From positions 1-28,573 of IMG/VR virus record IMGVR_UViG_3300036861_000513: a stretch of 28,573 bases of DNA. One strand, written 5' to 3'. Each line of letters opens with the position of its first letter. Position 1 is the stretch's first letter. The stretch comes from a virus. This document shows positions 249-26,808 of this stretch, in pieces. The notes below the pieces were generated by a model. The model did not search any database and was not told the DNA's origin. It saw nothing but the letters and a program-made list of their open reading frames with translations. The position numbers and the translations under genes are program-made.

Positions 249-1316
249 GTGCGCTACGGGCTCGTTGATGCTGAACTAAAAAAGCGCGGCCTACTCGACC
301 CCGAGACAACGGCCAGCGGGCTCCTTGATTCCGAATATCTCACCCTATCCGCCGTCGGCGTCACCCGCGAGGCCGCGGCCGCCGGCATCACGTGGAGCGC
401 CAGCAGCACCCGCGGGTCCGTCCTGCGCCCGGTCCAGGCAACAGGCTCCGCCTGGAGTATCGGATCCGCTCAAGCGACGCTGTTGCGCCCGATCGCCGCG
501 ACTGGAGCGACCTGGTCGATGGGGAGTGCGCTCGGTGCCGGCATCCGTGGCGCGCGCGCGACGGGTGCCTCCTGGTCCACGGCCGCGGCCGCGGCGGGCG
601 TCATCCGAGATCTGCGCGCGAGCGGCAGCAGCTGGTCCGTCGGTGCCGCGCGTCTCGGGCTGCTGCGCAACGTGGCCGCCACCGGGTTTTCTTGGAGCAT
701 CGGCAATGCCCTCGCGAATCGTTTCAAGGCGGTCGCGGCGACAGGCGCAACGTGGAGCCTCTCGGCCGCCACCGCGGCCGCGTTGCGTGGCGCACGCGCG
801 ACCGGCACGTCATGGAGCGCGGCGACGGCCGGCGGCGGGGCGATCCGCGACGCTCGAGCGAGCGGGGCAAGCTGGTCGCTGGGATCCGCGCGACTGGCGC
901 GTCTCGTGGGGCTGCAGGCGACGGGCGCCAGCTGGTCGATCGCGTCGTCACGCGCCGGCGTGCAGCGTGGGATGTTCGCCACCGGCTCGAGCTGGAGCAC
1001 GGGCACGGCGCTGCTCGGCGTCGTGCGCGCGGTACGGGGAACCGGCACGACCTGGTCGATCGGCGTCACACCCGGCGGGCTCCTCAGTACGGCAGTCTTC
1101 GCGGCGACCGGCGTCACTTGGAGTGCGGGATCCGCCTACGCCGACGTCGTTCTCCGGGCGCTTGCGCGCAACATCCATGTCGTCGGCGCGCAGGATCGCG
1201 AACAGCGCGTGCCCGCCGAGCTCGTCACCGCCGCGGCCGCCGGGGCACCGACAGCACACGCCGCGCCGGCGCTCGCCACTACGCACGTCGTGCCCCCGCG
1301 CGACACGGAGGACTGA
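249..1316 (+). CDS. Phage protein made of tandem 20-residue repeats
   Basis: A 355-residue protein starting at GTG 3 nt after the previous stop; no clear Shine-Dalgarno is seen. Residues about 41-300 form tandem repeats with an exact 20-residue period: the dipeptide WS falls at residues 49-50, 69-70 and so on to 269-270 (12 in register), and once more at 291-292 after a 2-residue insertion. The consensus is A[TS]Gx[ST]WSxGxAxxxxxR, with Arg (or Lys) ten residues after WS in most copies. The remaining positions vary freely and are mostly Ala, Gly, Leu and Val. The N-terminus carries two GLLD motifs and the C-terminal 55 residues are Ala/Val/His-rich. No signal peptide or catalytic motif is visible. 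A beta-solenoid-like or fibrous virion protein is plausible from the periodicity and the neighbouring head genes, but the function is unknown. Confidence 0.8.
   Translation: MRYGLVDAELKKRGLLDPETTASGLLDSEYLTLSAVGVTREAAAAGITWSASSTRGSVLRPVQATGSAWSIGSAQATLLRPIAATGATWSMGSALGAGIRGARATGASWSTAAAAAGVIRDLRASGSSWSVGAARLGLLRNVAATGFSWSIGNALANRFKAVAATGATWSLSAATAAALRGARATGTSWSAATAGGGAIRDARASGASWSLGSARLARLVGLQATGASWSIASSRAGVQRGMFATGSSWSTGTALLGVVRAVRGTGTTWSIGVTPGGLLSTAVFAATGVTWSAGSAYADVVLRALARNIHVVGAQDREQRVPAELVTAAAAGAPTAHAAPALATTHVVPPRDTED
369..1148 (+). repeat. Degenerate 60-bp coding repeat array (20-aa period)
   Basis: The DNA follows a 60-bp period set by the protein repeat. The segment coding for GxxWS (for example GGCGCCAGCTGGTCG) is the best conserved part and the other 40 or so bases have diverged strongly between units. 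About 13 units are present. The divergence means the array is old and held by protein-level selection, not a recent slippage expansion. Confidence 0.8.
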
Positions 1317-1655: not shown

Positions 1656-1669
1656 TCCAGACGTCTGTA
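1656..1669. promoter_or_regulatory. Palindromic operator-like site (copy 1)
   Basis: The sequence TCCAGACGTCTGTA contains a 10-bp perfect palindrome (CAGACGTCTG). It lies 7 nt after the stop of the preceding gene and 15 nt before a candidate -35 box. A copy differing at one base, and palindromic over all 14 bp, occurs at 22176-22189 directly after a minus-strand stop codon. The reuse argues for a protein-binding site or short terminator-type hairpin. Confidence 0.5.
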
Positions 1670-1683
1670 AAAACCGGTCGCCC

Positions 1684-1712
1684 TTGCGTTGGGCGGCGGC
1701 GTATTGTATCAA
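1684..1712 (+). promoter_or_regulatory. Candidate late promoter upstream of the head genes
   Basis: TTGCGT, a 17-bp spacer, then TATCAA. The second candidate late promoter at 18236-18264 has the same layout (TTGCGC, 17 bp, TATCCA), and both sit downstream of a palindrome ending in CTGTAAAA and upstream of the same hairpin ribosome-binding element. The shared layout is what supports it; the boxes alone are only moderate sigma-70 matches. Confidence 0.5.
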
Positions 1713-1725
1713 TTGCATCGACCTG

Positions 1726-1778
1726 GGAGGGCCACGAGAGCCCCGTACGGACACTCACCGTGCGGGGCTCTTGTCATG
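1726..1778 (+). promoter_or_regulatory. Hairpin-bridged ribosome binding site of the prohead protease
   Basis: A strong Shine-Dalgarno, GGAGG at 1726-1730, lies 45 nt before the ATG at 1776, far too distant in linear RNA. Between them is a 14-bp hairpin: left arm 1737-1750 (AGAGCCCCGTACGG), 7-nt loop, right arm 1758-1771. Folding it leaves 6+4 = 10 nt between GGAGG and ATG, an ideal spacing. The same core stem, loop length and layout recur before the endolysin gene. No T-run follows the right arm, which argues against a simple terminator. Confidence 0.6.
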
Positions 1779-2906
1779 ACGACGGCCGCTCTCGATCTCC
1801 GCAAGCTCCTTCCCGAGCCTGAGCTCCCCGCAGGCGCGCGTCGTGTCCGCTCCTCCGTTCCCATCACCGTCGAAGTCAATGATCCGCGCGCGCGGCAGCA
1901 GTCGCCGAATGGTGAAGACTACGACGTCAAGATCGTCGCGTCGACCAAGCGCGTCGCGCGCGACGGCGGGATCATCCCGGTCGAATCCTGGGCGCGCGAT
2001 CTCAGCCGCTACCTCGCCAATCCGGTCGTGCAGTGGGCGCACTCGTACCGCGAGCCGCCCGTCGCGACGTGCGTGCACATCGAGCTCGAGCCCGGCCAGG
2101 GCCAGCTCGTCGAGTACTGGCGCTTCCTCGATGGGATCACCGAAGACCAGTGGGACCAGTTCTGCGGCCGGCTAAAGGCGCTGTACGCGGTTCGCGGACT
2201 CCGCGCCGCGAGCGTGGGCTTCATCGTCCACGAGTGGCGCGACCCGACCGACCAGGAGAAGATCGACGCGCTGCAGAAGGGCGATGCCGAGCCCCGTTGG
2301 GTCGCGGTCCGCGCCGAGTTGCTCGAGACATCGGCCGTCCCGGTGCCGGCGGATCCCTTCGCGCTGTCCGTCGATCGCGCGCTCGAGGAAGCCGAGGCCA
2401 AGCAGATCGACGTCGCGATCGTGCGCGCGCGGTGGAACAGCGCGAAGCAGGTCCAGGCGCCGCCGCTCGCGGCTGAGACAACGCGCGAGACGCCGGCGGC
2501 TGCCGCGAATCCCTCGCCGACGCCGACGATTGCGCCGACCAGCAACAATGCGAATGCGAGTCCCGAAAACCCCACCCCGCAGCCAGCGGCGAGTGCGCGG
2601 GTGTCCGAGCAATCGGCGCCCGCCACTCCCGCGGCACCGACGGTGGAAACGCCGGCCGCGCAACCCGCGGCGGCGTCGCGCGGCTCGTCGGCAGAGCTCG
2701 CGCGGCTCCCCGAAGATCGGCTCCGCGCGCTCGTGCGCGAGGAGTTCGCCGCCGCCGCACGCGGCGATTCGATGCCCGCCCGCCGGGCGGGACTATTGGC
2801 GCTCGATGATGTCACGCTGCGCCGGATCGCTCGAGAGGAACTGGACCGCGTCTTCGTCCGGACCTTCGGGTTCCCGGCCCGCACCCCCACGCAGAGGACG
2901 TCCTGA
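1776..2906 (+). CDS. HK97-family prohead protease
   Basis: A 376-residue capsid maturation protease that would cleave the N-terminal scaffold (delta) region of the capsid protein inside the prohead. The ATG at 1776 is chosen because it directly follows the hairpin ribosome-binding element; an upstream in-frame start would lie inside that element. The family hallmarks are visible: NPVVQWAHS with the candidate catalytic His89, AASVGF with Ser146, and LLETSAVPVPADP, the usual end of the protease core (about residues 25-200). Residues about 225-310 are an Ala/Pro/Thr-rich linker, followed by a helical C-terminal tail (about 310-376). That extension makes the protein longer than the usual roughly 200-residue protease and may interact with the shell during assembly (inference). 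The capsid gene follows 2 nt downstream. Confidence 0.9.
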   Translation: MTTAALDLRKLLPEPELPAGARRVRSSVPITVEVNDPRARQQSPNGEDYDVKIVASTKRVARDGGIIPVESWARDLSRYLANPVVQWAHSYREPPVATCVHIELEPGQGQLVEYWRFLDGITEDQWDQFCGRLKALYAVRGLRAASVGFIVHEWRDPTDQEKIDALQKGDAEPRWVAVRAELLETSAVPVPADPFALSVDRALEEAEAKQIDVAIVRARWNSAKQVQAPPLAAETTRETPAAAANPSPTPTIAPTSNNANASPENPTPQPAASARVSEQSAPATPAAPTVETPAAQPAAASRGSSAELARLPEDRLRALVREEFAAAARGDSMPARRAGLLALDDVTLRRIAREELDRVFVRTFGFPARTPTQRTS

Positions 2907-18140: not shown

Positions 18141-18229
18141 ACCGCGCCGCGATGCAGCGGAACCTTCAGAAAGTCATGGTGACGGTACGCGGCCGCGATG
18201 GCGCCGCTGATACAGTAGAACTACTGTAA
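18137..18229 (+). CDS. Possible 30-residue coupled small protein
   Basis: A GTG in a GTGA overlap with the previous stop opens a 30-residue frame (VNRAAMQRNLQKVMVTVRGR ...) that ends at TAA inside a perfect palindrome. The 4-nt coupling is the same device used by most genes here, which is the main support. No function can be proposed, and the frame could be chance. Confidence 0.35.
   Translation: MNRAAMQRNLQKVMVTVRGRDGAADTVELL
18211..18228. promoter_or_regulatory. Palindrome upstream of the lysis-unit promoter
   Basis: TACAGTAG-AA-CTACTGTA is a perfect inverted repeat with 8-bp arms, ending 7 nt before the candidate -35 box. The other late promoter also has a palindrome upstream that runs into CTGTAAAA. 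It may bind a late activator or repressor, or act as a short terminator hairpin (AAA rather than T follows, so less likely). Confidence 0.45.
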
Positions 18230-18235
18230 AAGGGC

Positions 18236-18264
18236 TTGCGCGTCTAAGCCCCGTTCCCTATCCA
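18236..18264 (+). promoter_or_regulatory. Candidate late promoter upstream of the endolysin unit
   Basis: TTGCGC, a 17-bp spacer and TATCCA, matching the layout of the candidate promoter at 1684-1712 (TTGCGT, 17 bp, TATCAA). It lies in the only sizeable gap (126 bp) between the holin block and the endolysin gene. Confidence 0.5.
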
Positions 18265-18306
18265 TAGAAGGCGGTCCGTCTCCCCATGATGGGCCGTGAA
18301 GAGGAC

Positions 18307-18358
18307 GGAGGGCCATCGAGCCCCGTAAACGAAACCAACTCGTTGCGGGGCTCGCATG
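18307..18358 (+). promoter_or_regulatory. Hairpin-bridged ribosome binding site of the endolysin
   Basis: GGAGG at 18307-18311 is 44 nt from the ATG at 18356. A hairpin lies between: left arm 18317-18332 (one bulged A), 7-nt loop, right arm 18340-18354. Folding leaves 5+1 = 6 nt between GGAGG and ATG. The lower stem (GAGCCCCGTA with GCGGGGCTC, including a T-G wobble) is identical to the element at 1726-1778, while the upper stem differs but still pairs. Confidence 0.6.
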
Positions 18359-19036
18359 TATCCTCTTCCGGTTGGTTGGTCCGAAGATCAGTTCTCTCAG
18401 CTGCACGCGGGCTTCATTGCCGATCTTGTCCCTGCCCTTGTAGCAGCCAACGCGGCCGGCCTCCGGGTTCGGTTCCGGTCCGGGTACCGGTCCAATGCTC
18501 AGCAGCGGTTCCTCCACGAGTCCTTCGAGGCGCGGCTCGCGGCGTACGAACGCGGGGAGTTGAAGGCCAAGCCGCTCCCTGCAGCCCCGCCCGGCTCATC
18601 TGCTCACAATTTCGCGCTCTGCTCGGCCGACTCGAGTCATGCGATTGGCGGCGCCGAGGAGTGCCCGGAGTGCAGCGCCGCGGTCGACCCGGCGGCCGTC
18701 GCCTGCGACGTCCAGATCCTCGGACCGAACGGGCAGCCGATCCCGTCGGGCGGCGAGCTCCCGCTCGAGCAGCGGTCGCATGAGTGGCAGCAGTGGGCGG
18801 CGATCCTCGATCGCTATCCCGCCTTGCGCGACGGCGGCGACTTCGCCGGCCGCAAGGATCCCGTGCATGTGGAGTGGGCGCGCTGGAACCACAAGATGCG
18901 CGCGCTGGCTCCGTTGCTGGAACGCGCCGTCGATCATCCGGTCGCGCCGCCAGCAGACGTCGCCGCCCCTGCTGATGTGACCGCGGTAGCCCGCCCGCGC
19001 CGCCGAACGGGTCGACACGGCGGGGAGTCCGTCTGA
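18356..19036 (+). CDS. Endolysin, M15-type zinc peptidase with a four-Cys insertion
   Basis: A 226-residue endolysin of the VanY/L-alanyl-D-glutamate peptidase (M15) type, which cuts peptidoglycan stem peptides. Family motifs are RSGYRSNAQQ (residues 41-50), SSAHNFAL with zinc ligand His84, ACDVQILGPNG with Asp118, and DPVHVEW with His171 and catalytic Glu-type residue 173. In relatives, the His and Asp ligands lie in one compact S-x-H-x-x-G-x-A-x-D motif. Here they are separated by an insertion (about residues 89-115) containing CxxC, with cysteines at 89, 103, 106 and 117, which could bind a structural zinc. The C-terminal 35 residues are Ala/Pro-rich then Arg-rich. No signal peptide is seen, so release would need a holin. 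Confidence 0.85.
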   Translation: MYPLPVGWSEDQFSQLHAGFIADLVPALVAANAAGLRVRFRSGYRSNAQQRFLHESFEARLAAYERGELKAKPLPAAPPGSSAHNFALCSADSSHAIGGAEECPECSAAVDPAAVACDVQILGPNGQPIPSGGELPLEQRSHEWQQWAAILDRYPALRDGGDFAGRKDPVHVEWARWNHKMRALAPLLERAVDHPVAPPADVAAPADVTAVARPRRRTGRHGGESV

Positions 19037-19434
19037 TGCGCGCCCTCTTGCTGCTCCTCGCCTTGCTCGTCGCCGCGCCGCTCCGGGCCCAGCAGCGGAT
19101 CCCCGCCCCCGCGGTCGCTGACTCGCTCTGGCAGATCGTAGCTCAGTGTAGCGGCGCGCCCGTCCAGCCAGGCGGGGACCTCGGGGATGTGAAGTGGTAC
19201 GAGGATGCGGACCGGCTGCGGGCGCATCACGCGCGGGCCGAATGGGTGCCGCCCGATACGATCCTCCTTGCGCCTGATGTGGCGCCGTGGGAAATCGCGC
19301 ACGAATTGGCGCATCATCGCATGCGCGGGCCGCCGGACAACGCCTTCACGTTGGGCACTGCGAAGCATCCGTTCAATCCATTCTTCTTTCCCTGCAAACT
19401 CATGCCGCTGCAGCATCCGGCGCTGCGGCCATGA
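19036..19434 (+). CDS. Exported HExxH zinc-peptidase-like protein
   Basis: A 132-residue protein whose ATG shares one base with the endolysin stop. Residues 1-18 are a signal peptide (RALLLLLALLVAAPLRA then QQ). The body contains APWEIAHELAHHRM, an HExxH zinc-binding motif at His89-Glu90-His93, and a possible third ligand His111 within KHPFNPFFFPCKL. This is the minimal layout of a small zincin. Its position directly behind the endolysin suggests a periplasmic role in lysis or wall remodelling, but substrate and activity are unknown. The final 12 residues follow a Cys (120) that could pair with Cys38. Confidence 0.75.
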   Translation: MRALLLLLALLVAAPLRAQQRIPAPAVADSLWQIVAQCSGAPVQPGGDLGDVKWYEDADRLRAHHARAEWVPPDTILLAPDVAPWEIAHELAHHRMRGPPDNAFTLGTAKHPFNPFFFPCKLMPLQHPALRP

Positions 19435-20002: not shown

Positions 20003-20355
20003 GGCGCACCCGATATTTATTGATATCATTTATTCTCGCGGCCGCGCCCGCGGCTGCGCAGCAGTGGGATCCCGATCGGTGCCTCACCTGCCACGATAGC
20101 CAGCTGCACTTTGTCGCCGGCGCCAGCATCGACGTCGCGGCGCACATCATCCTTCCGAAGACGACGATCTGGCAACGGCTCGCGGTCGTCGCGACGATCG
20201 CGCTGGCCTACGAGCTCGGCCAGGAGAGTGCGACGCGGACGGCCGGCATTCACGGCCCAGGCTACGGTCTCGGCCCGAAGGACTGGGCGCTCACCGTCGC
20301 CGGCGGGGCCGTCCTCGAGGGCGCCTGGAGTCTCGGCCGGCGGATTTTCCGATGA
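19999..20355 (+). CDS. Exported DUF2279/YfiM-like protein with a CxxCH motif
   Basis: A 118-residue protein starting in an ATGA overlap. Residues 1-20 are a signal peptide (RYLLISFILAAAPAAA, then QQ). Immediately after comes DRCLTCHDSQLHF: CxxCH at residues 28-32, the sequence used for covalent haem attachment, followed by HFVAGASIDVAAHI, a hydrophobic segment (LAVVATIALAYELGQES) and GPKDWALTVAGG. The order HF-x-AG ... E ... D ... GG resembles small YfiM/DUF2279 proteins found in phage lysis regions (recalled pattern, not searched). Whether the CxxCH carries haem, forms a disulphide or binds metal is unknown. Confidence 0.7.
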   Translation: MRRTRYLLISFILAAAPAAAQQWDPDRCLTCHDSQLHFVAGASIDVAAHIILPKTTIWQRLAVVATIALAYELGQESATRTAGIHGPGYGLGPKDWALTVAGGAVLEGAWSLGRRIFR

Positions 20356-20909
20356 TCCGGCTCGAGCGCGCAGCGACCGCGGCGTTCCTGATCGGCATGT
20401 CGTGCGGGCCGGTCCGCGCGCAGGTCTCTACCGACTTGCCGAACGACACGCTGCTCGCTCAGGTCGTGCTGCCGGTTCAGATGGTGCTCGCGCCGCACAT
20501 CCTCCAGGGTCTCGACAGCATCGCGAGCTCGCCGATCGAGCGGTTCCGTTGCGTGCTCGGTGTGATCCGCGGCCCGTATCTGTGGGCCGATCTCTTCTAC
20601 GAGCCGCGCATCGGGTACGCCGACAAGGACAGCGTCTCCGTTGGCGGCTGTCCCGTCTCAACGGTCATTGAGTGGCACACGCATCCACCCGAGGGCAACA
20701 CCCCTTTCACCTTCTGGTGCTACCTGTCGGGCATGGACATGATGCGCGCCAAGCAGACCAGCGTCGCATTCTACATGGTGCACGTGCGCCGCGGCGTGTA
20801 CTGCTGGTGGAGCCTGTCGCAGATCCTGCGTGCGCTCGAGCGCAATCCGCTGCTGCCCCGGCTCGATCCGATCAAGGGACAGACGAGTTGGGAGCGGCCG
20901 AAGCGATGA
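20352..20909 (+). CDS. Exported JAMM/MPN-type metalloprotease-like protein
   Basis: A 185-residue protein in an ATGA overlap with its upstream neighbour. Residues 1-23 look like a signal peptide (ATAAFLIGMSCGPVRA, then Q). The body shows the JAMM elements in order: Glu63 in ERFRCVLGVIRG, His109-x-His111 in VIEWHTHPPEG, Ser126 and Asp129 in YLSGMDMM. The gap between the second His and Ser is 14 residues instead of the common 7. JAMM enzymes cut isopeptide or peptide bonds; in phages the fold is known from tail-tip proteins, whereas this one appears to be free and exported. Cell-wall peptide cross-links are a possible substrate (inference). Confidence 0.75.
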   Translation: MIRLERAATAAFLIGMSCGPVRAQVSTDLPNDTLLAQVVLPVQMVLAPHILQGLDSIASSPIERFRCVLGVIRGPYLWADLFYEPRIGYADKDSVSVGGCPVSTVIEWHTHPPEGNTPFTFWCYLSGMDMMRAKQTSVAFYMVHVRRGVYCWWSLSQILRALERNPLLPRLDPIKGQTSWERPKR

Positions 20910-22721: not shown

Positions 22722-23621
22722 CTACTCCGTCGCCGTCTCTTCCCGCTCGGCGGCCGCGGCGCCGCTGATGAAATCCGCGGCCTTCTGTGCCTGCGCGCCG
22801 GCGAACAGCAGCATGGCCGGATCCGCCTTGAGCGCCTTCAGCCAGTTCTCGAGATACGCGGCCGAGTGCTCGATCGTCTGCTCGCTGACCAGGTCGCAGC
22901 TCGCGAGCAAGAACGACGCGCCCATCTCCGCGACGAGCTCTTCCTGCGAGTACGCCGGCGAGCCGAACGGCGTCCACTCTTTCAGCGAGGCCTTGCGCGC
23001 GAGCCGTGACTCGTGGGCCGTGCTGTGGGTGAGCTCGTGGAACAGCGTGCCGTAGTACCCGGCCGCGCTGTAGAAGCGATCGCGCGCGGGCATCATCACC
23101 ACGTCACGCGCCGGCGCGTAGGCGGCGATCTCGCCACCCTCGACCATCTTGGGACGCTGCGGCATGTCGGCGACGAGCTGCTCGGCCGCGGCGATCGGAT
23201 CAAAGCCCTTAGGCGCGTCGGCCGCGACCGGCACCGTCAGGTTCTCGCACTGCTCGACGTTGAACACCGTGTAGTAGCGCACATGCGGGATCGCGCGCTC
23301 GAGCTTCGCCACGGTACCGTCGGCCTGCTTCTGCTCGGTGATCCACCGCCAGAACACGATCGGCGTGCCCTTCTCGCCCTTCTTCACGTGGCCGCCCAGC
23401 GCGAGCGCCTGCTTGAACGTGCACCAGAACGGCGAGCGGTAGCCCTGGAAGAGCAGCGCGAACACGTTTGAGCCGCGGTAGGGCTGCTTGGTGACCAGGT
23501 TGCGCGGCATGTCGGCGCGCTTCCACGGCTGCCGCCAGGGCACGGTGCCCTGCTCGAGCGCCTCGATCAACCGCTGGGTCACGATCTCGTACACCTGGTT
23601 CCGCTTGCTCTGGCCAGCCAT
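22722..23621 (-). CDS. ardC: ArdC-type antirestriction protein (ssDNA-binding plus zincin domain)
   Basis: A 299-residue protein. Residues about 5-125 match the ArdC-like ssDNA-binding N-terminal domain: RLIEALEQGTVPWRQPW, PYRGSNVFALL, FKQALALGGHVKKGEKGTPI. Residues about 140-275 are the zincin-like metallopeptidase domain with FHELTHSTAH (HExxH at His195-His199), RLARKASL and a downstream acidic helix EELVAEMGASFLL that supplies the third ligand. ArdC proteins on plasmids and phages protect incoming DNA against restriction. The gene is transcribed from a strong minus-strand promoter with an operator in its spacer, divergently from a toxin-antitoxin pair, implying shared control. Confidence 0.9.
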   Translation of the reverse strand: MAGQSKRNQVYEIVTQRLIEALEQGTVPWRQPWKRADMPRNLVTKQPYRGSNVFALLFQGYRSPFWCTFKQALALGGHVKKGEKGTPIVFWRWITEQKQADGTVAKLERAIPHVRYYTVFNVEQCENLTVPVAADAPKGFDPIAAAEQLVADMPQRPKMVEGGEIAAYAPARDVVMMPARDRFYSAAGYYGTLFHELTHSTAHESRLARKASLKEWTPFGSPAYSQEELVAEMGASFLLASCDLVSEQTIEHSAAYLENWLKALKADPAMLLFAGAQAQKAADFISGAAAAEREETATE

Positions 23622-23681: not shown

Positions 23682-23714
23682 GACTCCTGCTTGTTGCAGG
23701 CTGATACAACCCTC

Positions 23715-23742
23715 TTGACGTACAACGCTAGCGTTGTAGCTT
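23715..23742 (+). promoter_or_regulatory. Candidate promoter of the toxin-antitoxin pair
   Basis: TTGACG, a 16-bp spacer and TAGCTT. The -35 box is good and the -10 box weak. Operator 2 fills the spacer, the usual arrangement for toxin-antitoxin autoregulation. Confidence 0.5.
23721..23738. promoter_or_regulatory. Operator 2 of the ardC / toxin-antitoxin intergenic region
   Basis: TACAACGCTAGCGTTGTA is a perfect 18-bp palindrome lying between the -35 and -10 boxes of the toxin-antitoxin promoter. The likely ligand is the XRE-type antitoxin coded downstream. Confidence 0.75.
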
Positions 23743-23768
23743 TACGTCGTCCCTCACAGGTGCTATCT

Positions 23769-24104
23769 ATGACGTGGTCAGTAGAGTTCTATGAGAAGCG
23801 CGAAGGGGTCCGGCCGGCCCAGCTGTTCGTCGACGGCCTAGAGGGGAAGCACAAGCGGGAAGCCCTCGCCCTGATCGCGCTGGTTGGGGAGCGCGGGAAT
23901 CAGCTGCGGCCGCCGCACTCCAAGCTCGTCGAGACTGGCCTGTTCGAGCTGCGCGGGCATCAGGTGCGGATCTTCTACATCTTCCGTCCGGGGCGGCGCA
24001 TCGTGCTGCTCGACGGGATGATCAAGAAGCAGGACGAGATTCCGGCAGAGGTGAAGGATCGCGTCCGCGCCTATCGCAAGGATGCTGAATCACGGGAGGA
24101 GTGA
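23769..24104 (+). CDS. higB: HigB/RelE-type toxin (Gp49-like)
   Basis: A 111-residue protein starting at ATG 23769; an upstream TTG in frame would overlap the operator region and is not preferred. It matches the phage-derived Gp49-like/HigB toxins of the RelE superfamily: FYEKREGVRPAQLFVDGLEG, LVETGLFELRGHQVRIFYIF, RRIVLLDGMIKKQDEIPAEV, then a C-terminal helix with Tyr. Such toxins cut mRNA on the ribosome. The toxin-first order and the overlapping XRE-type partner fit the HigBA class. In a prophage the pair may stabilise the element or act in phage exclusion (inference). Confidence 0.88.
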   Translation: MTWSVEFYEKREGVRPAQLFVDGLEGKHKREALALIALVGERGNQLRPPHSKLVETGLFELRGHQVRIFYIFRPGRRIVLLDGMIKKQDEIPAEVKDRVRAYRKDAESREE

Positions 24105-24133
24105 TCGACCGCATGGCGCCGAAAGGATCGGCT

Positions 24134-24430
24134 ATGACCTACGTCGAAAACGAATTGCGGAAGGATCCCGCGCTGCGCCGCGACGTCGAGGCGATGCTCG
24201 CGCAGATGCGCATTGTCCAGGATCTCGCCGCGCTGCGCCAGCGTCGCAAGGTGAGTCAAAAGCAGATCGCCGACGCGCTGGGGATCTCGCAGCAGCGGGT
24301 CGCGAAGCTCGAGTCCGGCCAGGTCGCCAACCTCGAGTTGCGGACGATCGTCCGCATGGCCGCGGCGCTGGGGGCGCGCGTGCGCGTGCGTCTGGAGGTG
24401 GGGGGACGGAAGAAAGCCGCGAAGACTTAG
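24134..24430 (+). CDS. higA: HigA-type XRE antitoxin
   Basis: A 98-residue protein from ATG 24134, which has AAGGA 7 nt upstream. A GTG at 24101 overlapping the toxin stop, and an ATG at 24113, are in frame and would add 11 or 7 residues. Residues about 32-80 form an XRE helix-turn-helix: LAALRQRRKVSQKQIADALG, then ISQQRVAKLESGQVANLELR. This is the cognate antitoxin and the probable binder of the two palindromes upstream. The stop codon overlaps the stop of the convergent minus-strand gene. Confidence 0.88.
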   Translation: MTYVENELRKDPALRRDVEAMLAQMRIVQDLAALRQRRKVSQKQIADALGISQQRVAKLESGQVANLELRTIVRMAAALGARVRVRLEVGGRKKAAKT

Positions 24431-24678
24431 CGCCGGCTCAACAACAACTCGGCCTCACGGGTGCGTGCTGCATCCGTGAGGCCGTTCCATTTCACCATCT
24501 GATTCGCGAGCTCGCGCTCGTCATTCGGTCGGCGCTGGTGCGCCGTGCGCGATCGTTTCCCCGGGCCAAGTGCGGCGATCAGGATCAACAGCGGCCCGTC
24601 TTCCGCGCTTTGCGCGGCGACCGCGTAAGAGACGCCGGCGTACTGCCACGTCGCGAGCGGCGTCTCCTCGAGCGACAA
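24427..24678 (-). CDS. Small hypothetical protein
   Basis: An 83-residue frame on the minus strand, starting at TTG 4 nt after the stop of the lipoprotein gene and ending in a stop that overlaps the antitoxin stop. The sequence (SLEETPLATWQYAGVSYAVA ... NDERELANQMVKWNGLTDAA) has normal composition, unlike GC-rich antisense shadows. The start has no clear Shine-Dalgarno, and translation may depend on the gene upstream. No function recognised. Confidence 0.5.
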   Translation of the reverse strand: MSLEETPLATWQYAGVSYAVAAQSAEDGPLLILIAALGPGKRSRTAHQRRPNDERELANQMVKWNGLTDAARTREAELLLSRR

Positions 24679-25679: not shown

Positions 25680-25864
25680 TCACTTCTCCTCGTCGGACCT
25701 CGGACGAATCTCGCGAAGCTCCGCAGGTCTTCCACGTCTATGCCGTGATGCTGAGCATCGTCAGCGATTAGCTCCAGCCAATCCGCGAGCGCGTGCGCGC
25801 GCTCAAGTTCGTTCTGGAGAATCGTCGTTCGGACCGCGTGGGCCACGAGCTTCCCTGGCATCAT
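25676..25864 (-). CDS. Small hypothetical protein in the repressor operon
   Basis: A 62-residue helical protein (TTILQNELERAHALADWLEL) starting inside the 3' end of the repressor gene (62-nt overlap) and coupled by ATGA to the membrane protein downstream. Two adjacent ATG codons are possible starts. The chain of overlaps supports expression. Function unknown. Confidence 0.65.
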   Translation of the reverse strand: MMPGKLVAHAVRTTILQNELERAHALADWLELIADDAQHHGIDVEDLRSFARFVRGPTRRSE

Positions 25865-26537
25865 CGTCCTTGATCCAGCGCCAGCGCGCTTTCCGGGCGA
25901 GATCGATCAGGGCATCCACCTCCGGCACGAGCTCGGGCGGCGTATCCACGGCGAGGCGGATTAGCCATTCCCGCAGGAGGCGAGGGTCCTTGTCATAGAG
26001 ACGCTGGGCCAGCTGCCCGACGAGCTCGGCCGCACGGTCGGCGATATCCTGCACCGACGGCGGTGTGCGCGTCGCAGTTGCCGGGCCTTCCATGCTAGAG
26101 CGCGCGGCGGCAGGGGTTAGGGATTCCTGTTGTGCGTCGGCGCGCGGCAAATTGCCAGCATCGCCCGTAGAACGCGTGTCGCGGCGATAGGGCAAATGGG
26201 GAGAGGGCTCGGCGACCGATTGCGCCCTGGCGGCGCCGCCAAGGCCGGTTTTTACCCCTTCTGGGGGCCGTCCCTCACCGGCCACGATCCAGCTGATATC
26301 ACAACCGGCGACCTCAGCTAAGCGCCGCACGTTCTCGGTTCCCGGTGTAACCTCTGCCGTTTCCCACTTCTTAATCGTGGACTCGTCGACGCCGAGCCGT
26401 CGACCCAGCTCGTGCCGGGGGAGTGATTTGCCCGGCCACGGCCCCAGGGCACGGCGTATCTGCTTGATTCTGCGTGCGATACGATCCCTATGCGATGTGG
26501 CCAAAACTTGACCCTTGACAAGGGAATAAACGGCCAT
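25803..26537 (-). CDS. XRE-family phage repressor
   Basis: A 244-residue protein from ATG 26537; a TTG 36 nt downstream with AAGGG in front is an alternative start. The N-terminal region has an XRE helix-turn-helix (about residues 38-85): LPRHELGRRLGVDESTIKKW, ETAEVTPGTENVRRLAEVAG, ending in DISWIVAGEG, a phrase typical of phage CI/C2-type repressors. The centre (about 95-165) is a low-complexity linker, and the C-terminal 80 residues are helical (DIADRAAELVGQLAQRLYD). No S24/LexA-type serine peptidase is present, so induction by RecA-driven self-cleavage is not expected. It is divergent from the early genes, the usual repressor position. Confidence 0.8.
   Translation of the reverse strand: MAVYSLVKGQVLATSHRDRIARRIKQIRRALGPWPGKSLPRHELGRRLGVDESTIKKWETAEVTPGTENVRRLAEVAGCDISWIVAGEGRPPEGVKTGLGGAARAQSVAEPSPHLPYRRDTRSTGDAGNLPRADAQQESLTPAAARSSMEGPATATRTPPSVQDIADRAAELVGQLAQRLYDKDPRLLREWLIRLAVDTPPELVPEVDALIDLARKARWRWIKDDDAREARGPRGPNDDSPERT
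26512..26524. promoter_or_regulatory. Operator-like palindrome over the early promoter -35 box
   Basis: CCCTTG-A-CAAGGG is a perfect palindrome around a central A and contains the -35 hexamer TTGACA of the rightward early promoter. It lies inside the first codons of the repressor gene. Binding would repress early transcription. Confidence 0.5.
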
Positions 26538-26542
26538 ATTAT
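26515..26542 (+). promoter_or_regulatory. Early rightward promoter
   Basis: TTGACA, a 16-bp spacer and TATTAT, close to the sigma-70 consensus, 62 bp before the first early gene. It is flanked by two palindromic elements and overlaps the start of the divergent repressor gene, so repressor control is very likely. Confidence 0.75.
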
Positions 26543-26550
26543 CAGGCCGT
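26530..26550. promoter_or_regulatory. Inverted repeat around the early promoter -10 box
   Basis: ACGGCC, nine bases, then GGCCGT: perfect 6-bp arms on either side of the -10 hexamer TATTAT. It could be a second operator. The repressor ATG at 26537 (minus strand) falls within it. Confidence 0.4.
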
Positions 26551-26604
26551 GTCAGACGGCGGTCTTCCCGTCGCACGACAACCGAACCCGGGAGCATAGG
26601 GCAC

Positions 26605-26808
26605 ATGAGCAAGGGCCGCAAGGACGCACGACTGACGCTCCGGCTGCGCAAGGATCAGAAGAGGCAGCTCGAGAGAGCCGCCGCGATCGAGAGCGCACGT
26701 CGGCCTCACAACGTCGATGCGGGCCCTCTCTTGGTCGAGCTGGCCTGGCCCGGCGTCGAGCGCATCCTCGCTGAGGCCGAACAGCCGCAGCCCGTGGGGT
26801 CGCTCTGA
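26605..26808 (+). CDS. Ribbon-helix-helix-like early regulator
   Basis: A 67-residue basic protein, the first early gene after the rightward promoter, with AGGG upstream of its ATG. The opening GRKDARLTLRLRKDQKRQLE followed by RAAAIESARR follows the Arc/CopG ribbon-helix-helix plan: a DNA-contacting strand, then helix A. Position opposite the repressor gene suggests a Cro- or anti-repressor-like regulator. The C-terminal half (PLLVELAWPGVERILAEAE) would form the second helix. Confidence 0.65.
   Translation: MSKGRKDARLTLRLRKDQKRQLERAAAIESARRPHNVDAGPLLVELAWPGVERILAEAEQPQPVGSL

Follow-up and report, generated by a model that had tools for sequence, protein, structure and literature searches.

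A Duplicated Promoter-Like and Leader Cassette with a Putative Split Ribosome-Binding Site before the Protease and Endolysin Genes of an Unclassified Virus of Bacteria

1. Introduction

How might translation start at two genes whose strong Shine-Dalgarno (SD) sequences lie 45 and 44 nt from the start codon, with a stable predicted hairpin in between? The question is raised by an IMG/VR virus record from an unclassified virus of bacteria (28,573 bases, ~68% GC); the whole of this stretch, at its full length, was analysed and is referred to as the window. On the + strand, from 1776 to ~17 kb, are found the genes for the protease, an HK97-type capsid protein, the connector, the tape measure protein, Dit and other tail proteins, and a CI-like repressor gene (25803-26651, - strand) suggests a temperate phage. 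The two genes concerned are the following.

1776..2906, + strand: prohead protease (head maturation protease) gene, with PHROG head protease matches; its ATG lies 5 nt past the core stem of the hairpin
18356..19036, + strand: VanY-like endolysin gene; its ATG lies 2 nt past the core stem and is the first in-frame start of the open reading frame

The protease is 29% identical to that of phiKM1, from residue 8 onward, and the capsid protein is ~24-31% identical to those of known phages among the matches listed; the endolysin matches PHROG 2649 endolysin (E = 1.6e-4) and Pfam VanY (E = 4e-5, slightly below the curated cut-off).

2. Position and Folding of the Two Hairpins

The leader of the protease gene (copy A) and that of the endolysin gene (copy B) are composed of the same elements, all on the + strand.

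1726..1734, + strand: copy A SD, GGAGG inside the common word GGAGGGCCA; anti-SD duplex of -10.7 kcal/mol at 44 nt
1738..1770, + strand: copy A hairpin, 13 bp core and 7-nt loop, lengthening to 17 bp at 1734-1774
18307..18315, + strand: copy B SD, GGAGG inside the common word GGAGGGCCA; anti-SD duplex of -10.0 kcal/mol
18318..18353, + strand: copy B hairpin, 7-nt loop and a 14-bp stem in which one A is bulged; an extra C-G pair at 18317/18354

The copy A hairpin reads GAGCCCCGTACGG-ACACTCA-CCGTGCGGGGCTC and the copy B hairpin GAGCCCCGTAAACGA-AACCAAC-TCGTTGCGGGGCTC. The positions of GGAGG, its distance from the ATG (45 nt in copy A, from 1726-1730 to 1776; 44 nt in copy B, from 18307-18311 to 18356) and the 7-nt length of both loops agree with the original prediction, as does the absence of a third copy, the hairpins at 1738-1770 and 18318-18353 being the sole examples that the window contains. 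In both copies 1-5 nt separate the end of the stem from the ATG. Compared with shuffled sequences both stretches are far more stable (z-scores of -5.9 and -4.1), and counting on the predicted folds indicates that the distance between GGAGG and ATG would be reduced to 4-12 nt in copy A, depending on the extent of zipping, and to 6-8 nt in copy B; the proposed shortening is thus retained as a prediction, while the single values of 10 and 6 nt first given for it are replaced by ranges, the stem of copy A being able to reach 17 bp.

Opening the whole stretch from SD to ATG is predicted to cost ~40-49 kcal/mol, so that melting by a ribosome is improbable and initiation would have either to accommodate the helix or to bypass the distal SD. 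In folds that include the coding sequence, the GGAGG of either copy is predicted to be base-paired to early codons, at an opening cost of ~8 kcal/mol in copy A and 2-8 kcal/mol in copy B, where the ATG is paired as well; CGGGGCTC in the 3' arm resembles a weak SD (-5.0 kcal/mol) and is located 2-5 nt 5' of both ATGs.

3. Covariation between the Two Copies

The lower half of the stem had been described as the same in both copies, wobble included, and indeed ten pairs are identical, in hairpins whose loops differ. The upper stems have ACG/CGT in common; they differ in the pair that closes the loop, which is swapped (G-C to A-U), and in an inserted A-U pair together with the bulged A; outside the stem core, one further pair is swapped (A-U to C-G). 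The compensatory change put forward for the upper stems is therefore real, amounting to compensation at two pairs and the insertion of one more, but smaller than stated, ACG/CGT being shared. Random upper segments pair equally well in 0.5% of trials for copy A and 2.7% for copy B, and exchanging the arms weakens both hairpins (-26.7 and -22.3 with their own arms, -20.5 and -18.6 with swapped ones). With two copies and no relatives found (see below), the covariation is one between two paralogous copies only.

4. The Hairpins Belong to a Longer Duplicated Cassette

The original prediction overlooked that each hairpin sits within a longer duplicated cassette. Exact searches located it in the intergenic gaps 1650-1775 and 18141-18355, which have the lowest GC content in the late region. 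The order is identical in both copies: a palindrome ending in CTGTAAAA, a promoter-like TTGCGY-N17-TATC element, GGAGGGCCA, the hairpin and the ATG.

1658..1672, + strand: copy A palindrome CAGAC/GTCTG followed by TAAAA, candidate activator or operator site
18213..18231, + strand: copy B palindrome CAGTAG-AA-CTACTG followed by TAAAA, candidate activator or operator site
1684..1712, + strand: copy A promoter-like TTGCGT-N17-TATCAA; transcription would start at ~1718
18236..18264, + strand: copy B promoter-like TTGCGC-N17-TATCCA; transcription would start at ~18271

Each of the three shared sequences occurs in the window at the two cassettes and nowhere else: CTGTAAAA at 1665 and 18224 (0.03 expected from shuffles), TTGCGY-N17-TATC at 1684 and 18236 (0.06 expected from shuffles) and the 9-mer GGAGGGCCA at 1726 and 18307 (0.33 expected), these expectations somewhat understating chance because the patterns were picked after inspection of both gaps. 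The promoter-like element lies ~15 nt from the SD in copy A and ~44 nt in copy B; hence the conserved part is that between SD and ATG.

On this pattern similarity the cassette resembles a promoter preceded by a dyad, with a conserved leader on its 3' side. The match rests on exact patterns, an alignment of the upstream regions with MAFFT having anchored wrongly outside the leader, and a generic sigma-70 scan of the window did not list the promoter-like elements of the cassettes. Near-perfect sigma-70 sites (11/12), resembling the consensus TTGACA/TATAAT, are found in the regulatory region at 23681-23652 (- strand) and 26515-26542 (+ strand); unlike these, the cassette element is degenerate. 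The promoter-like element common to both genes lends support to the view that they head late transcription units, their late timing being presumed.

5. Rarity of the Arrangement and Search for Relatives

The window has two instances of the pattern GAGCCCCG-N6-30-CGGGGCTC, against zero in 100 dinucleotide shuffles. For GGAGG followed by a stem of at least 11 bp and an ATG it again has two, and 300 shuffles, with both strands considered, gave 8 altogether; in phage loci not selected for hairpins, a survey for GGAGG, stem and ATG gave at most two cases per ~1 Mb. A sequence-independent survey of SD, stem and start recovered the two window sites, with 17 and 12 bp; applied to 80 distant phage loci (12,417 candidate starts), it found no stem of at least 12 bp and just two 9-bp cases, belonging to one locus type and lying within capsid coding sequence. 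Among 37 start sites checked, a very strong SD more than 13 nt away is found at two, the hairpin leaders themselves (-10 to -10.7 kcal/mol at 42-44 nt), the next far site reaching -7.7 kcal/mol; the other starts with a strong SD have it within ~9 nt. Covariance models from Rfam gave no match in the window at the gathering score, the best match below threshold being F6 (26.4 of 46 bits) for copy A and none being obtained for copy B.

Scans of IMG/VR, INPHARED and GTDB, at both protein and DNA level, yielded no relative bearing the cassette among the matches listed. No phage in INPHARED matches the first 25 kb of the window at the DNA level, and searches with the protease, the endolysin, the major capsid protein and a tail protein gave nothing above ~33% identity among the matches listed, although relatives at 60-70% identity may escape single-protein pattern scans. 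The matches listed in viral contigs for the promoter motif common to both cassettes were unrelated ones.

A general family of hairpins with GGAGG and GAGCCCC placed before an ATG was also considered and rejected: in 119 IMG/VR stretches defined by GGAGG and GAGCCCC..GGGGCTC, start codons occur at about chance frequency, the chance figure being our own estimate. The fuller word GGAGGGCC has 1 viral and 33 cellular matches, in none of which an ATG lies directly 3' of the stem, and the exact lower stem with an ATG has 16 viral matches, none with an SD in place.

6. Comparison with Known Systems

The closest parallel is offered by T4 genes 25 and 38, where a hairpin cuts the distance between SD and AUG from 27 to 11 nt and from 22 to 5 nt, respectively, and where the split arrangement has been experimentally shown to raise initiation (PMC3014915, citing Malys and Nivinskas 2009); in the literature found, hairpin-shortened initiation sites are represented by these two T4 genes alone. 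The likeness to gene 25, already suggested in the original prediction, holds at the level of sequence and predicted fold: a strong distant SD is followed by a hairpin that would reduce the spacing, here from 45 and 44 nt to ~4-12 nt. Unlike in T4, the same hairpin sequence is found twice in one genome, within a promoter-leader cassette. Its stem is GC-rich and exceeds those of T4 in length, the protease and endolysin are unrelated to gp25 and gp38, and the arrangement is predicted from sequence.

The second parallel that had been drawn, with the start-associated sequences (SAS) of cluster K mycobacteriophages, does not survive. Both cases share a repeated sequence at the translation starts of several genes, in part with inverted repeats. 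However, the cluster K SAS is a 13-mer, GGGATAGGAGCCC, which is itself the SD and lies 3-7 nt 5' of the start, while the ESAS repeats are found upstream of the SD, and RNA hairpins were judged unlikely by the authors (PMC3203893); the hairpins described here, in contrast, lie between SD and ATG. The 13-mer is absent as such from the window: allowing up to 3 mismatches, GGGATAGGAGCCC has 5 matches against 9.6 expected, none of them at the two starts, and a cluster K start-associated sequence was accordingly rejected.

7. A Split Ribosome-Binding Site and Its Alternatives

With moderate confidence, we interpret the two leaders as copies of a late-gene control cassette in which a promoter is followed by a split ("accommodated") ribosome-binding site, where the hairpin probably shortens an otherwise unusable gap between SD and ATG, as in the two T4 genes. 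RNA polymerase would start ~10-40 nt 5' of GGAGG; the anti-SD sequence of the ribosome would bind GGAGG while the following 33-41 nt remain folded, looped out of the mRNA path, and the ATG, brought to within ~4-12 nt, would become available for translation of the protease and the endolysin, whose genes open the head unit and the lysis unit, respectively. The geometry of SD, hairpin and ATG is kept at two genes 16.6 kb apart; in both, a strong SD (-10.7 and -10.0 kcal/mol) is too distant when unfolded, and a stable predicted hairpin lies wholly in between. This reading is favoured by arms that keep pairing despite swapped and inserted pairs, by two SDs that rank among the strongest in the window, by the predicted cost of opening the stretch, by the missing T tract, by the rarity of the architecture elsewhere and by the T4 precedent. 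Against it count above all the predicted pairing of GGAGG with early codons (and of the copy B ATG), which could repress, and further the two-copy basis of the covariation, the weak SD-like sequence near both ATGs, promoters recognised by pattern similarity, and a hairpin stability far above what a spacer-shortening device needs. If one module indeed serves two late genes, hairpin-shortened initiation would be a control element that can be used repeatedly, and in a phage beyond the T4 group; it would also offer a natural test of how a bacterial ribosome accommodates a helix of 13-17 bp that separates SD from start codon; gene finders that score nearby SD sequences alone would undervalue such starts.

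A more tentative version of the split site is a regulated one, in which a factor binding the lower stem, or a switch between open and codon-paired SD, would activate the head and lysis units together; late timing would then be set at translation as well as by the common late promoter. Comparable, limited credence is given to an RNA operator: a phage or host protein would bind the conserved lower stem (GAGCCCCGTA/TGCGGGGCTC, U-G wobble included) and repress or activate translation of the two units jointly, with GGAGG paired to early codons in the repressed state. The identity of the ten lower-stem pairs in hairpins with different loops, the SD sequestration predicted in both leaders and the presence of two copies at two units, resembling a small regulon, are all consistent with such an operator; known phage operators, however, often keep the loop (T4/RB69 gene 43, PMC3014915), pairing between a G-rich SD and C/T-rich codons arises easily by chance at 68% GC, and no binding protein is identified.

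We consider it unlikely that the hairpin is a transcription attenuator or antitermination element regulating read-through into the head and lysis units, despite its position ~20-47 nt from the presumed transcription starts of two long units. Structured RNA opens long late or early transcripts also in lambda (tR'/Q) and HK022 (put, in two copies per genome); these RNAs target RNA polymerase and are not bound to a position between SD and ATG, and beyond the structured RNA at the transcript start no sequence or protein sign of such a system is seen here. No Q-like protein was found in the record, which may be a fragment. The GAGCCCCGT/GCGGGGCTC stem is found elsewhere in terminator-like hairpins with T runs (viral contigs L004, L005 and L014), and such GAGCCCC-loop-GGGGCTC-TTTT terminators sometimes lie directly 5' of an ATG (L004, L005); they carry T runs and no GGAGG adjoining the stem, whereas the reverse is true of the window hairpins. 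Indeed, both stems are followed by sequences lacking a T tract (TTGTCATG and GCATGTAT) and neither is listed by the terminator scan, on which grounds an intrinsic terminator was rejected as the main explanation; nor would terminator function explain why GGAGG is kept directly 5' of the stem.

Less probable still is a 5' mRNA stabiliser or a site for RNase III (double-strand cleavage), with the distal GGAGG unused and translation starting from CGGGGCTC in the 3' arm, or from a transcript processed to begin there. A near-perfect 13-17 bp helix near the presumed 5' end and an SD-like sequence 2-5 nt from both ATGs would suit this role, but such a helix is a short one for RNase III, the stem buries the SD of its 3' arm, and the conservation of the strong GGAGGGCCA in both copies is left unexplained. 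Finally, a functionless module-boundary cassette, its second copy moved by recombination, would account for the sharing of the entire promoter-leader cassette but is very improbable, since SD, stem, pairing and ATG distance are retained amid flanks, loops and promoter spacers of near-random similarity, which points to selection.

8. Additional Observations

3' of the endolysin gene, two small proteins (19036-19434 and 20352-20909, + strand), with no match in Pfam or PHROG, carry metallopeptidase-like motifs, as judged by eye: HELAHH in the former and HTHP..S..D (JAMM-like) in the latter. A protein built from ~12 repeats of ~20 residues each, resembling ATGASWS(I/V)GSA, is encoded at 249-1316 (+ strand) and matches no PHROG or Pfam family. 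An ArdC-type anti-restriction protein (22722-23621, - strand), with N-terminal ArdC and zincin-like metallopeptidase domains, is 43-46% identical to the best plasmid proteins. A probable toxin-antitoxin pair (23691-24430, + strand) consists of a Gp49/HigB-like toxin gene and, next in order, an HTH antitoxin-like gene; past this pair, a strong hairpin (24450-24484, + strand; 16 bp, 3-nt loop) followed by TTCCATTTCA is a likely terminator.

An RNA motif unrelated to the cassette is common to seven viral contigs and is composed of hairpin 1 (CCTCC..GGAGG) and hairpin 2 (AGAGCCCC..GGGGCTCT).

L038:1299-1385, + strand: RNA motif
L048:1468-1555, + strand: RNA motif
L070:3553-3635, + strand: RNA motif
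L096:2562-2645, + strand: RNA motif
L074:8360-8448, - strand: RNA motif
L075:5414-5499, - strand: RNA motif
L081:3930-4013, - strand: RNA motif

It has no Rfam match at the gathering score, apart from which an anti-hemB match below threshold (E 0.0014) lies on the opposite strand, and its L081 copy has no match in INPHARED. The loop of hairpin 2 pairs with a segment just 3' of it (CTCATG/CATGAG, CTCGTG/CACGAG, CCTCAAG/CTTGAGG, CCGAG/CTCGG), and in several cases this segment overlaps the SD 5' of a start codon; the resulting pseudoknot appears to covary and would mask the overlapped SD, making the motif a candidate for a new cis-regulatory RNA.
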